From Halovenus salina (GTDB taxonomy: Archaea > Halobacteriota > Halobacteria > Halobacteriales > Haloarculaceae): 64,000 nucleotides of DNA. The stretch is taken from positions 1,922,001-1,986,000 of the forward strand of contig NZ_CP112972.1 of NCBI RefSeq assembly GCF_026410925.1, in the 5' to 3' direction. Position 1 is the first letter of the stretch; each line of letters starts with the position of its first letter. The notes below the pieces were generated by a model. It searched no databases and had not been told where the DNA came from. It was given only the letters and a program-made list of their open reading frames with translations. The position numbers and the translations under genes were made by a program. Shown here in pieces: positions 25,233 through 30,216 of the stretch.

Positions 25233-25601
25233 TCACTGTAGCCACTCGTACCATTCGTCGAGTTCCACGACGTTGTTGGAGAGCTCGGCGATTCCGTACT
25301 GTTCGAGGACGGCGTCTACAGTTCGTGCCAGTCCTTCCGGGTCCTCGTCCGGAAGCTTCTGGTCGTAGTAGAGGAGGAGCCCGGAGTGGTCTACCTCCCG
25401 GTGGAGCGCTTCGAAGTCCTTCGCGTTGTTCGAGATCAAGAGCGTCTCGTTTTCACCACACCATCGGAGCAACGCTCTGTCGCTCGTGTGCTCGCCGAAT
25501 CGGTCCTTTGCTTGACTGACGGGATAGCCCCGACTCCGAAGGATGTGCTCGAACACTCGTCCGACGTGTTCGTCGAGCAGCAACTCCGGCGTCGAACTCA
25601 T
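25233..25601 (-). CDS. DUF5615-type PIN-like toxin candidate
   Basis: 122 residues. The N-terminus LLLDEHVGRVFEHILRSRG and the SDRALLRWCGENETLLISNNAKDFEAL stretch match the DUF5615 family, which is PIN-like with an acidic active site (Asp9, Asp near NxKDF). The start overlaps the stop of the DUF433 gene by 4 bp. DUF433/DUF5615 pairs are widespread predicted toxin-antitoxin modules. Nuclease activity is expected from the fold but is not shown here. Confidence 0.82.
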   Translation of the reverse strand: MSSTPELLLDEHVGRVFEHILRSRGYPVSQAKDRFGEHTSDRALLRWCGENETLLISNNAKDFEALHREVDHSGLLLYYDQKLPDEDPEGLARTVDAVLEQYGIAELSNNVVELDEWYEWLQ

Positions 25602-25873
25602 GAAATCGGTTCTTTGGGCTTCAGCGACGACTCGCTGACCGACTCGAACGCCGCGGCGTTCTCGTGTTCGTGTGCCCGCATCTCCTCGATGTTGTCGTAG
25701 TAGTACGCCAGCGCCTCGTAGACTGCCGCCAGTGAAACCTCGAACTGGTCGGCGACGTAGGCCGGCGACTGCCCGCCTTCGATTGCCTTCGCGGCGACGT
25801 GACGAACGCCGACCCGGGTCCCCTCGATGCGAGGTTCCCCGCCGAGTACGTCTTCGTCGCTGGTGATGGGCAT
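25598..25873 (-). CDS. DUF433-type antitoxin candidate
   Basis: 91 residues from the ATG at 25873. The sequence DEDVLGGEPRIEGTRVGVRHVA and the helix-turn-helix-like ADQFEVSLAAVYEALAYYYDNIEEM are the DUF433 hallmark. The start is supported by a TATA box (GTATAAAAG on the minus strand, about 25896-25904) 27 nt upstream, consistent with a leaderless mRNA. As the first gene of the pair it would neutralise the DUF5615 product and probably repress the operon. Confidence 0.85.
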   Translation of the reverse strand: MPITSDEDVLGGEPRIEGTRVGVRHVAAKAIEGGQSPAYVADQFEVSLAAVYEALAYYYDNIEEMRAHEHENAAAFESVSESSLKPKEPIS

Positions 25874-26082
25874 ACGCTGTTCTTGGGCGTGTTCTCTTTT
25901 ATACCTTCGTCCGGCCGTGTTTTTCGACCGGTGCGTTTTGTGGCGTGTGTCACTCTCCAGTCCGTCCCGAACCGACCGCACATTCGTATGCCGCGTGATT
26001 CACTCCCTGCCTGCCTCGTTCCGTTGCTTGCGGGCCGCTCGCGTCGCGGCCTCCAGTCGGTCGGCCTCGCTCTCGCTGGATG

Positions 26083-29000
26083 TTACTCTCCGACGGCCTC
26101 CTCCACTATCTCGATTTCCTCGTCGGTCAGCCCGTACAGTTCGTAGACGATTTGGTCGATGAGGTCGTCGGTTCGCTCGATTTTCGCCTCCAGTTCCTCG
26201 GCGCGGGCTTTCGTCTCCCGGTAGCTCGCCAGCCCCTCCGCGACGTCGGCCACCGCGGGGAGGGTCAGCTTCCGCAGGCGGTCGACCAGCGAATTGGTCT
26301 TCGTCGCCGTCTCGCGGAACTCCGCGAAGCCGCCGGCCTCCTCGACGGCCACCGGGACGAACGCCTCCACGAGGTCGGCCTCGGTCTCGGTGAGGTCGGT
26401 CACCCGCAACGCCGGCAGCGGCTCGGTCTCGGCATACCCCCACCGGTCGGTCTCGGGGTCGTCCCCGCCGTAGTCGTCGCGTCGGGCACCCTCCAGTTGT
26501 GCCTCCTCGGGCTTGTACCGCGCCGTGAGCCGAATCTCGACGGTGGTCGACGACTCCCGGACCACCTCGCAGTCGCCCACGCGGAGGTTCGGGTGCTCCT
26601 CTGTGGTCCGCTGGAGGATGGAGTCGGCCGCGCCCTCCGGGGGCTGGGTCAGGCCGATGTCTGCGAGAGTTTGACCTTCATTATATGCTCCGAAGTAGTC
26701 TATTAAATCCAAATTTAATTTATCGTGCTCTGTTCTCAAAATTATCATACATTCTGATAAAATTATCGCATAATTGTATCTATTTCTGGCATTCGAGTCT
26801 TCTTCCTGATAATTATTTAATATTTTAGCACAGTCCGTGATCCTCGTAGGCATCTTTTCTGATAATGAAAATGATATTTCATCACCTACGTAATTGGAGC
26901 CTAACGTTGGCATTGGCAACTGAACAATGTGTCCCCTTTTTACTTGAGCCAAAGCCTCTCCTTCCTCTGGGTTTATTATATTTTGGTAGTACCAATTGAC
27001 AAAACTGGAATTGATGAGAGCAAGTAAAAATAATGGAACATAATTCTCGCTTTTGGGAATTACTATGTGTAGATTATCCCGTGCTATGAATCGTTCATTA
27101 TCCAGTGCCGCGATTAGTGAGTCCCCTGTTTGTCGAATTAATATCTTCTTTTTTACATTGAAGATTTCTGGATCTCGCGGTGCAGCTAACCATTCCCCAT
27201 AGCTAATCCAGTAGTCATTATCCCACTTAATCAAATATCTGCTAATCAGACTTCCTCTAAGTAGTGGCCGGAACGAATCGTCTTCTTTTTGCTCGGAGAC
27301 GTATGGTTTCTCGTCTACAATTTCCTGTGTTTGTGGAGGGTTTCCCTTTCCCTTCTCAAATGGTTTTGTTCCATTGTATATATCACAAACATCTTTCATT
27401 TTCACTGATTCGGAAAACTTTTGTTCAATAGACAATGCTTCTGTGTCGGCAAATATGTTGACTGCTGAGCCTTCTCTGTTTTGAAGGAATTTTTGCTCTA
27501 GCTCTGATTTTGTCACTGTGTTGTCATATCTTCTCTTTTCAACACTAATCGAATTATGATTCTGAATCTCTGTTGAAAATATCAGCGATATTGGCTCAAC
27601 AGTGGCATCCGAAAATACTTCGTGTTCGTACTCAACAACCGAATGAATTGATGTTTGATTAAAAATTAATTCTCTAATATTTGTGAATTTTAGGTTAGTC
27701 AGCCAGGTGTTAGGAACAATCATACCAATCATTCCGCCATGTTTGGATATCTGCGTACACATCTCCATAAACAATAAATATCGGTCTAATTGGTAATCTT
27801 GGTAATCAAAGGTTAGATTGAAGTAGTCCTTTTTTACCTCAGACATCTCTTTTCCGTACGGTGGGTTCTTTACAATTGCATCAAATCCACTCTCCGCCTT
27901 CACCTCCCCGTCGATGTCGAAAAACACCTCGGGGAACTCCAGTTCCCAGTGGAAAAACGCCTCCTCCTCGGCGGTCGCCTGCGCGCTCTGGAACCAGTCG
28001 GTCTCGGCAATCTCGGCCCACTCTTCGTCGTCCTCGATAGCGCCGGCCATCTCCCGGTAGGCGTCCTCGGGCACGTCCAGGCCGAAGGCCTCGGCGGTGT
28101 GGACGTTCGCCAGCTCGAACAGGCGCTGGTAGAGCGGGTCGGCGCGGATGTCGTCGTAGATCTCTTCCATCGAGTGGATGTCCGCGAGCGTCTCGTTGTC
28201 GATGTCGAGCAACTCCTGCATCCGGTCCATCACGTGGTCGAGGGTCCGCCGCCGGGTGCGGTCGAAGGCCTCGAACAGCGTCAGTTGCCCCGCGGCCTCC
28301 TCGTCGCCGTCCGAGAGCACCTCCGTGATGTCCGACCCCACCAGCGAGTTCCCCGTCTTGAGGTGGTGGTCGAGGAAGGCAAGGGGCTGGTCCGCGGCCA
28401 GCGTTTCGAGCCACATCGACAGCTTCCCAAGCTCGACGGCCATCCCGTTGATGTCGACGCCGTAGATGCACTCCTTGGCGATTGTCCGCCGGAGGTCCTG
28501 CTCGTCGTAGGACTGTATCTCCTGCTCGCGGACCACCTCCATCACCTGCTCGGTCAGGTATCCCGTCGCGCTCGTCAGGAAGTGGGCGCTCCCCATCGCC
28601 GGGTCGAGTATCTTCAAATCGAGCACCGACTGCCAGAACCGCCGGAAGTACTCCGCCTCGCCCGGCTCCAGCCCGTCCGCGGCGAGGTCGTCTCTGATGT
28701 CTTCAAGCAGCGGGTCGACGGTCTCCTCGACGATGTAACTCACCACGTAGTCGGGGGTGTAGTACGCCCCCGTCGCCTTGCGCTCGCCGTCGTCGTTGAC
28801 CACGTAGAGGCCGCCGGCCTCGACGGTCTCGACCGCATCGGCGACGCTGACCTCCGTCGCAGGTTTCCAGACCTGGCCGCCGTCGGCGGCGACCGCGGCG
28901 TACTCCTCGGGCGCGACGTGGAACCCGTGTTCGAGCAGCCCCTCGTAGATACTCCCCAGATGGCGGGTGTCGAGGTCGGCGTAATCCGCAAGCACGAACG

Positions 29001-30216
29001 AGCCGTCCGTTTCGGTGGTCCCGAGCCGGTAGACCACCTCGGCGACGTATCTGTCTGCGACCTCGTGCTCTGCGAGGAAGGCGTGGTTTTCGTCGTCGAA
29101 CAGCCCGCCGTTGTAGGGCGGAATCCCCAGCTCCTCGTTGCCCTCGTCGACCAAATCGAAGAGGTTGCCGAGCCGGTTCCACATTGTCGTCGAGTACTCG
29201 CTGTAGGTGTCGAACCCCTCGCCGGCGCTAATCTCGTCGTGAATCTCTGAACGCAGTTGTGTCAGACTGAAATTCTCCTCGTACTCCGCGACCTGCTCGG
29301 GCGATTCTGGGTGTATCAGGTCACGAGATTCCGCGTAGAGGACGAACATCAGCCGGTACAACAACACGAGCGACTGCTCTTTGAGTTCGGTCAGCGCGGC
29401 CTCGTCGTCGGGGTCGATGTCGAGGTCGTTGGTCGCGACGAATCCCTCGCCGAGCACTCTGAGCGCGGTGAACACGTTGTCTTGGAGGTCCGACCCGAGT
29501 TCCTGAGCCGCGGTCTCGCTCTCGGACCAGACCGTATCCAGAAACGACGTGCCGGCCGTCTCGGCGAACGCTTCGGGCCGGAAGAACACGTAGAAGTATT
29601 TGAACGCCTCCAGGTCGCCCGATTCTAGCAGCTCCGGCAGGTCGACCTCGTAGTACGTCTCGGTGGCGTAATCTTTGGTCCCGTAGAGCCGCCACTTGCG
29701 CCCGTCGGTGAGAATCCCCCACCGGAGCCCCTCCGGCGTCTTGTCGAGATAGTACTTAATCTGCTGAGAGGCGTCGTAGTACGACCTGTTTTCGGCGAAC
29801 CGCTGGCCGAAGTCGGCGTTCCACTGTTTCGCTTCGAGCACCGCCGAGGCGAGGTTGTACATCGCTCCGGCGTCGCCTTTCTTCTTTTGCAGTGCCGCTC
29901 CCCGGCGCGTATCGCCGGACTCGAACAGCAGTCGGTCGTTGTACCCTTCGCCGCCCGGCAGCGTCGTCTCGGACATCATGCCGAATCCGAGCGCGTCGAG
30001 GACCTCCTCTATCCAGATATCGAGCAGTTCGTCTTCGTTGTACGAGGCAAGCAGCGACCCCTCGATCTCCCATAGCTCCTGTAGCTCCTCGAAGGCCTCC
30101 TGTGCGGCCTCGTCACAGTCCCAGGCGTCGAGGTCGTCGACGCGCTCGTCGAGATAGTAGCCCGCAAACAGGTTCGCGTTGTGATATGGCGTCGTCTGGA
30201 GGGTTGCCTGGCTCAT
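26083..30216 (-). CDS. Single-chain restriction-modification enzyme (type IIG-like, Eco57I-type methyltransferase)
   Basis: 1,377 residues. The N-terminal part carries a nuclease-like pattern, NDRLLFES ... LEAKQWNADF (about 93-133, PD-(D/E)xK type), then a helical linker. The adenine methyltransferase core follows: SAM motif ILDPAMGSAHFL (about 535-546) and catalytic NPPYGK (about 783-788). Next are a target-recognition region and a C-terminal helical end (AEELEAKIERTDDLIDQIVYELYGLT). Such enzymes cut and methylate one DNA site from one polypeptide. DNA from about 26690 to 27890, encoding residues ~775-1175, is visibly AT-rich with phage-like codon use, while both ends are GC-rich. No BREX or DISARM partner genes are nearby. 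Full length, with no internal stop. Confidence 0.88.
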   Translation of the reverse strand: MSQATLQTTPYHNANLFAGYYLDERVDDLDAWDCDEAAQEAFEELQELWEIEGSLLASYNEDELLDIWIEEVLDALGFGMMSETTLPGGEGYNDRLLFESGDTRRGAALQKKKGDAGAMYNLASAVLEAKQWNADFGQRFAENRSYYDASQQIKYYLDKTPEGLRWGILTDGRKWRLYGTKDYATETYYEVDLPELLESGDLEAFKYFYVFFRPEAFAETAGTSFLDTVWSESETAAQELGSDLQDNVFTALRVLGEGFVATNDLDIDPDDEAALTELKEQSLVLLYRLMFVLYAESRDLIHPESPEQVAEYEENFSLTQLRSEIHDEISAGEGFDTYSEYSTTMWNRLGNLFDLVDEGNEELGIPPYNGGLFDDENHAFLAEHEVADRYVAEVVYRLGTTETDGSFVLADYADLDTRHLGSIYEGLLEHGFHVAPEEYAAVAADGGQVWKPATEVSVADAVETVEAGGLYVVNDDGERKATGAYYTPDYVVSYIVEETVDPLLEDIRDDLAADGLEPGEAEYFRRFWQSVLDLKILDPAMGSAHFLTSATGYLTEQVMEVVREQEIQSYDEQDLRRTIAKECIYGVDINGMAVELGKLSMWLETLAADQPLAFLDHHLKTGNSLVGSDITEVLSDGDEEAAGQLTLFEAFDRTRRRTLDHVMDRMQELLDIDNETLADIHSMEEIYDDIRADPLYQRLFELANVHTAEAFGLDVPEDAYREMAGAIEDDEEWAEIAETDWFQSAQATAEEEAFFHWELEFPEVFFDIDGEVKAESGFDAIVKNPPYGKEMSEVKKDYFNLTFDYQDYQLDRYLLFMEMCTQISKHGGMIGMIVPNTWLTNLKFTNIRELIFNQTSIHSVVEYEHEVFSDATVEPISLIFSTEIQNHNSISVEKRRYDNTVTKSELEQKFLQNREGSAVNIFADTEALSIEQKFSESVKMKDVCDIYNGTKPFEKGKGNPPQTQEIVDEKPYVSEQKEDDSFRPLLRGSLISRYLIKWDNDYWISYGEWLAAPRDPEIFNVKKKILIRQTGDSLIAALDNERFIARDNLHIVIPKSENYVPLFLLALINSSFVNWYYQNIINPEEGEALAQVKRGHIVQLPMPTLGSNYVGDEISFSLSEKMPTRITDCAKILNNYQEEDSNARNRYNYAIILSECMIILRTEHDKLNLDLIDYFGAYNEGQTLADIGLTQPPEGAADSILQRTTEEHPNLRVGDCEVVRESSTTVEIRLTARYKPEEAQLEGARRDDYGGDDPETDRWGYAETEPLPALRVTDLTETEADLVEAFVPVAVEEAGGFAEFRETATKTNSLVDRLRKLTLPAVADVAEGLASYRETKARAEELEAKIERTDDLIDQIVYELYGLTDEEIEIVEEAVGE

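Follow-up and report, generated by a model that had tools for sequence, protein, structure and literature searches.

The sequence analysed was a 64,000-nt stretch of the Halovenus salina genome (assembly GCF_026410925.1, contig NZ_CP112972.1, positions 1,922,001-1,986,000, forward strand), hereafter the window. It contains a solitary restriction-modification gene, bordered by genes with housekeeping or otherwise unrelated roles (uroD, usp, CBS, a class II tRNA synthetase, a DUF433/DUF5615 pair, NUDIX, PQQ, and gatB). The features of the gene are listed below in window coordinates, with the basis of each assignment in brackets.

26083..30216, minus strand: Type IIG-like restriction-modification fusion gene, intact ORF, 1377 aa (Eco57I, PF07669; TaqI_C, PF12950)
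29827..29937, minus strand: PD-(D/E)XK nuclease motif, D94 to E128-A-K130 (family conservation)
28588..28605, minus strand: SAM-binding motif I DPAMGS, residues 538-543, in the conserved backbone (invariant in the family alignment)
26670..27892, minus strand: exchangeable AT-rich cassette, residues ~776-1182 (GC step, collapse of identity at both edges, phylogenetic conflict)
27856..27867, minus strand: catalytic motif IV NPPY, residues 784-787, 5' exchange zone (NPP in 62/62)
26902..27396, minus strand: target-recognition domain proper, residues 941-1105 (TaqI_C match at 984-1101; beta-rich in the model; identity to L116 and L190)
26640..26724, minus strand: 3' exchange zone LDLIDYFGAYNEGQTLADIGLTQPP, residues ~1165-1192, end of the long spacer helix (family-conserved LNLxLxDxxGxYxxG...QPP)
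26086..26640, minus strand: conserved C-terminal tail, residues ~1193-1377 (GC 66%; conservation)

The family used for comparison consisted of the window gene and 61 full-length homologues, all belonging to its own order, which were collected by searching the genomes of the archaeal family and by searching the order with the centre of the protein alone. One genome per species was sampled, which limits the view of recent events. The protein begins with the nuclease, continues with a gamma-type N6-adenine methyltransferase and the recognition domain, and ends in a helical tail, and the PADLOC REase_MTase_IIG profile spans residues 10-799 of the 1377 aa. In the family alignment, the nuclease motif was conserved at D94 (62/62), at position 128 (E or D in 60/62), and at K130 (61/62). 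This motif, the invariant SAM-binding motif, and NPPY are encoded in one ORF, so that nuclease and methyltransferase share a polypeptide as in Type IIG enzymes; the recognition domain lies in the same chain, as located by the TaqI_C match, and no specificity-subunit gene was found among the flanking ORFs. The gene is predicted from these features to encode a single-chain Type IIG-like enzyme that is presumably active. By analogy with known Type IIG enzymes, its one recognition domain should direct both cutting and methylation. Enzymes of this class characteristically cut DNA some way from an asymmetric site and are stimulated by AdoMet. Residue 783 (window 27868-27870), which precedes the catalytic NPPY, is K in the window enzyme and G in 60/62 relatives, and methylation activity is therefore not guaranteed.

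Type IIG fusions such as Eco57I, TspDTI, and the MmeI-like enzymes (PMC3384240, PMC4833311) have the same nuclease-linker-methyltransferase(NPPY)-recognition order in one chain. The window enzyme, a predicted nuclease-methyltransferase, differs from them in its low similarity to solved or characterised members and in the long conserved tail that follows the recognition domain. A structure model covering residues 440-1377 (mean pLDDT 75) resolved the cassette into the catalytic half of the methyltransferase and a beta-rich recognition domain, together with connecting helices; a long spacer helix occupies residues 1143-1166, and the 3' border lies at its end. The solved folds nearest to the model were CamA, BrxX, M.BseCI, and M.TaqI, and since overall TM-scores were modest (~0.3 on query length), the model supports domain identity rather than detail. 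CamA, BrxX/PglX, M.BseCI, and M.TaqI, which were also matched by sequence profiles, resemble the window enzyme in the methyltransferase and recognition domain; unlike it, their structures have no nuclease domain.

Base composition changes sharply within the gene. A first-pass annotation of this DNA had described a restriction-modification fusion with GC-rich ends and an AT-rich middle at 26690-27890, beginning just before NPPYGK, ending near residue 1175, and differing in codon use. The ORF and GC profile agreed with this description, and the coordinates proved right to within ~20 bp. GC content falls from 64% to 38% between ~27890 and 26670. In 300-bp windows, it was 0.35-0.42 between ~26600 and 27950 versus 0.58-0.72 on either side, and only 4 of 628 sliding 1.2-kb windows fell below 42% GC, all of them overlapping the centre (next lowest elsewhere, 47%). 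The 5' composition edge was located at residues ~776-784, immediately ahead of NPPYGK (784-789) or on it, in the codons for GFDAIVKNPPY, and the 3' edge at residues ~1177-1183, in the codons for GQTLADIGLTQPP. GC3 drops from 93% to 37% in the centre and is 85% after it. With the gene's own backbone as the reference for codon use, leucine was encoded by TTA 10 times and CTC once in the centre, versus 2 and 47 times, respectively, in the backbone. Amino-acid content accounted for about one third of the GC drop (64% in the backbone, 55% expected for the centre had it used the codons of the backbone, and 38% observed there), and for 23% as the family average.

A centre lower in GC than the backbone was found in 62/62 enzymes, and centre GC was unrelated to backbone GC (slope 0.01, r = 0.01). 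The step of 26 points in the window gene was the second largest of the 62; enzymes in low-GC hosts (L203 and L204) show a smaller step, of 3-7 points. HsdS proteins of the same archaeal family, which served as a control, had recognition domains averaging 46% GC and flanks averaging 56%. The sole GC-rich centre was that of L084 (66% versus ~70% in its backbone, a gap of ~4 points), and AT-richness is thus not needed for the architecture.

Regional alignment showed the ends to be mostly 50-90% identical in the nearer subfamily and the centre mostly 10-30%, with similarity collapsing at both of the predicted borders; the centre is poorly alignable, and these low identities carry alignment noise. 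Tail residues 1271-1377 were 65-92% identical within the same backbone subfamily. Over all pairs of the 62 enzymes, N-terminal identity was correlated with that of the methyltransferase front (rho 0.85) and, less closely, of the tail (0.44), versus 0.00 for the centre. The backbone of the window gene was 70-79% identical to those of enzymes whose centres were only 20-30% identical, and the closest centres (46-51%) were found in enzymes with backbones only 45% identical. Phylogenies disagreed accordingly: the backbone tree placed the window gene in a 17-member clade (support 0.99), the centre tree grouped it with L116 and L117 (0.999), both of the other backbone subfamily, and the two trees had 4 of 59 splits in common. 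The segment thus has a phylogeny independent of its flanking backbone, as is characteristic of mobile recognition domains, and the exchange proposed in the first-pass annotation is well supported.

Recent swaps were recognised in three pairs of relatives (L041/L045, L119/L120, and L043/L053), and in the DNA their breakpoints fall on the codons for NPP. L041 and L045 were 97% identical in the N-terminal part and front half and 22% in the centre, their DNA being near-identical up to the NPP codons and unrelated beyond. The reverse was seen in L119 and L120, whose centres were 92% identical, backbones 68-75%, and tails 48%. The breakpoints sit at conserved codons, which is compatible with homologous recombination. 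For the window gene, searches of the order and class detected no near-identical donor or alternate cassette, the best matches having 46-51% protein identity; genome contigs searched with the centre and viral contigs searched with the whole protein gave no match. The exchange in the window gene itself is therefore undated and visible at no more than 46-51% identity. The search for characterised relatives of the recognition domain yielded none, with plasmid relatives at most 37% identical, which left no basis for predicting a recognition sequence.

Searching the phylum with the complete protein yielded many matches, in many genomes, that were confined to residues 770-1106. These lie in Type IIG enzymes of ~960 aa with a different architecture (PADLOC PDLC03604), most of them from one low-GC, non-haloarchaeal archaeal family, in which methyl-coenzyme M reductase was present in 4/6 genomes tested. 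Identity between the ~960-aa enzymes and the window protein was 24-32% in the N half where alignable, up to 45% in the centre, and up to 59% in the recognition domain proper. The window recognition domain was 59% identical to both L116 and L190, so that the cross-family match equals the best haloarchaeal one; the nearest cross-family cassette relatives reside in genes of 42-45% GC. The second family has swap patterns of its own: L190 and L201 were 93% identical in the N-terminal part, 31-35% in the centre, and 81% in the tail, and L190 and L191 were 47%, 83-90%, and 49% identical, respectively. Judged by sequence similarity, related cassettes occur in both Type IIG families, and the swap patterns identify motif IV through the recognition domain as the exchanged unit in each.

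The enzyme is very probably built from a fixed backbone, a replaceable cassette, and a fixed tail, with the cassette swapped among relatives. In this arrangement the backbone holds the PD-(D/E)XK nuclease, a helical connector, and the SAM-binding half of the methyltransferase, and the cassette holds the methyltransferase from motif IV onward and the target-recognition domain. We infer that homologous recombination at the conserved GFDAxxxNPPY codons on one side and LNLxLxDxxGxYxxG...QPP codons on the other would exchange the cassette for that of a different enzyme, in some cases from a different backbone subfamily and, over longer times, from a separate Type IIG family and a different lineage of archaea. 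As a single recognition domain should guide both activities, a swap would alter cutting and methylation together and could in a single step produce a new specificity that works. The first-pass annotation had proposed a swap of the target-recognition segment; exchange stood, and what is exchanged extends beyond the recognition domain, running from catalytic motif IV to the spacer helix. That a different centre would change the cut sequence, as it also proposed, can be soundly inferred. It is also possible, although somewhat less likely than not, that archaea share a set of AT-rich cassettes (catalytic half and recognition domain) that move between non-orthologous single-chain Type IIG enzymes, pass from haloarchaea to low-GC archaea of other lineages or back, and cycle too fast to adopt host composition.

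The first-pass annotation regarded the exchange as recent and took the AT-rich composition as its trace. Replacement of the centre once, recently, by an AT-rich foreign segment in the window gene would agree with the size of the step, with the sharply different codon use, and with the position of the closest centres in other families. It is unlikely, given that the same composition trend is present in all 62 relatives and in HsdS recognition domains and that no donor exceeds 51% identity. The AT-richer centre in every enzyme, the lack of a link to backbone GC, and the AT-rich HsdS domains leave the term recent unsupported. Relatives with the same centre and the same composition had been named as evidence that would speak against exchange; the relatives do share the low GC, but their centres differ in sequence. 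The composition agrees with a pool of shared cassettes that keeps a base composition of its own, and it provides no clock for one recent event. Alternatively, AT-richness could be a local product rather than the trace of a donor pool, arising from loss of GC-biased gene conversion or codon selection where a homologous partner is missing, or from selection for AT-rich recognition DNA. This is compatible with exchange and is possible but somewhat doubtful: the low GC found throughout the family and in HsdS, and the small drop that persists in low-GC hosts, agree with it, whereas the independence of centre GC from host backbone GC, the GC-rich centre of L084, and the low GC of the genes that hold the nearest cross-family relatives do not.

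Divergence in place, with no exchange and a recognition region evolving very fast under diversifying selection, would suit a recognition domain, which is expected to diverge fast, and the many centre pairs (most of those in the family) with less than 30% identity. It cannot yield a centre that is more conserved than its flanks, as in L119/L120, nor the reverse pattern in L041/L045, nor the opposite behaviour of L190/L191 and L190/L201; with well-supported conflicting clades it is already contradicted for the family and is highly unlikely here. Assignment of the protein to BREX PglX or DISARM DrmMI methyltransferases instead of Type IIG is suggested by profile matches (NCBIfam BREX-1 PglX, 5e-34; PADLOC DrmMI, 4e-94) and was rejected as extremely improbable. 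PglX scores of 117 and 73 bits were far under the cut-offs of 500 (curated) and 900, the DrmMI match covers mainly residues 465-881, which is the methyltransferase, and the nuclease motif is conserved. PglX works with BREX partners, but no BREX partner was found among the flanking genes searched, nor any DISARM match in nine flanking proteins.

In the passages searched, recognition domains of Helicobacter pylori and other bacteria are described as being replaced between conserved flanks, within or between genes and sometimes across species barriers (Furuta et al. 2011, PMC3077401; 2014, PMC3983042; reviewed in PMC7379913), and their movement between non-orthologous proteins is known from 2012 work cited in PMC7379913. 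Most of those cases involve S subunits that are proteins in their own right, or Type III Mod; in the present family, which is archaeal, the exchanged unit also takes in the catalytic half of the methyltransferase of a single-chain Type IIG enzyme. Type IIG genes of Haloferax volcanii (HVO_A0006/HVO_A0237 and HVO_A0079; PMC4389544, PMC5867850, PMC6471742, PMC10609329) are described in the same body of passages, and haloarchaeal Type IIG enzymes are reported there to have a patchy spread and a PD-(D/E)XK nuclease and to be often plasmid-borne (PMC4389544, PMC6471742, PMC10609329). The present family resembles them in these respects, a comparison made by description rather than direct homology. 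The passages report no cassette exchange or composition step for the Haloferax volcanii genes; nor do those searched, which cover few subscription papers, describe this archaeal family as a cassette system, a unit containing the catalytic half, or a host-independent GC content. Recognition-domain mobility and haloarchaeal Type IIG genes are thus already known, and the single-chain archaeal cassette form appears new within those passages. The present analysis puts numbers on such mobility in an archaeal family of single-chain Type IIG enzymes, whose backbone and centre are statistically independent. The junctions at defined codons provide natural evidence of where such enzymes tolerate joining, and methylation calling on haloarchaeal isolates already available could test whether the recognition sequence changes. 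A recognition domain that is low in GC is no proof of recent transfer.

The genome carries a second copy on contig G000:C3 (135,744 bp; L038, L039, L170-L172), which is terminally redundant, positions 1-~33,900 matching 101,844-135,744 at >99.9% identity in sampled stretches, and probably represents a ~101.8-kb circular plasmid whose assembled ends overlap. L039 was considered as a decaying third copy with two frameshifts and rejected, as it is the same gene with two 1-bp gaps in the redundant plasmid end; the genome therefore encodes two enzymes of this kind, one on the chromosome and one on the plasmid, and their centres are unrelated. None of the genes flanking the window enzyme recurred beside its relatives except for a DUF433/DUF5615 pair near L121 similar to the one in the window.

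25233-25981: DUF433/DUF5615 pair, directly downstream of the enzyme gene (domain content)

This pair is toxin-antitoxin-like by domains, and its DUF5615 protein has a weak PIN-like match. The last 50-107 codons of the gene family persist in at least a dozen genomes (L085-L094) as 3' relics that stand alone and are often broken, sometimes two or three in tandem, and L045 has an additional 3' end immediately after the intact gene; these relics may be the trace of repeated replacement in that part of the gene. Duplicated enzyme relatives with equal scores lie ~100-113 kb apart on G077:C4 and G048:C1 and could be true duplications or assembly effects. A haloarchaeal-type copy with 54% identity (L167, PUKV01000164.1) is present on a contig labelled Syntrophomonadaceae, a bacterium, and this label is probably a metagenome binning error.
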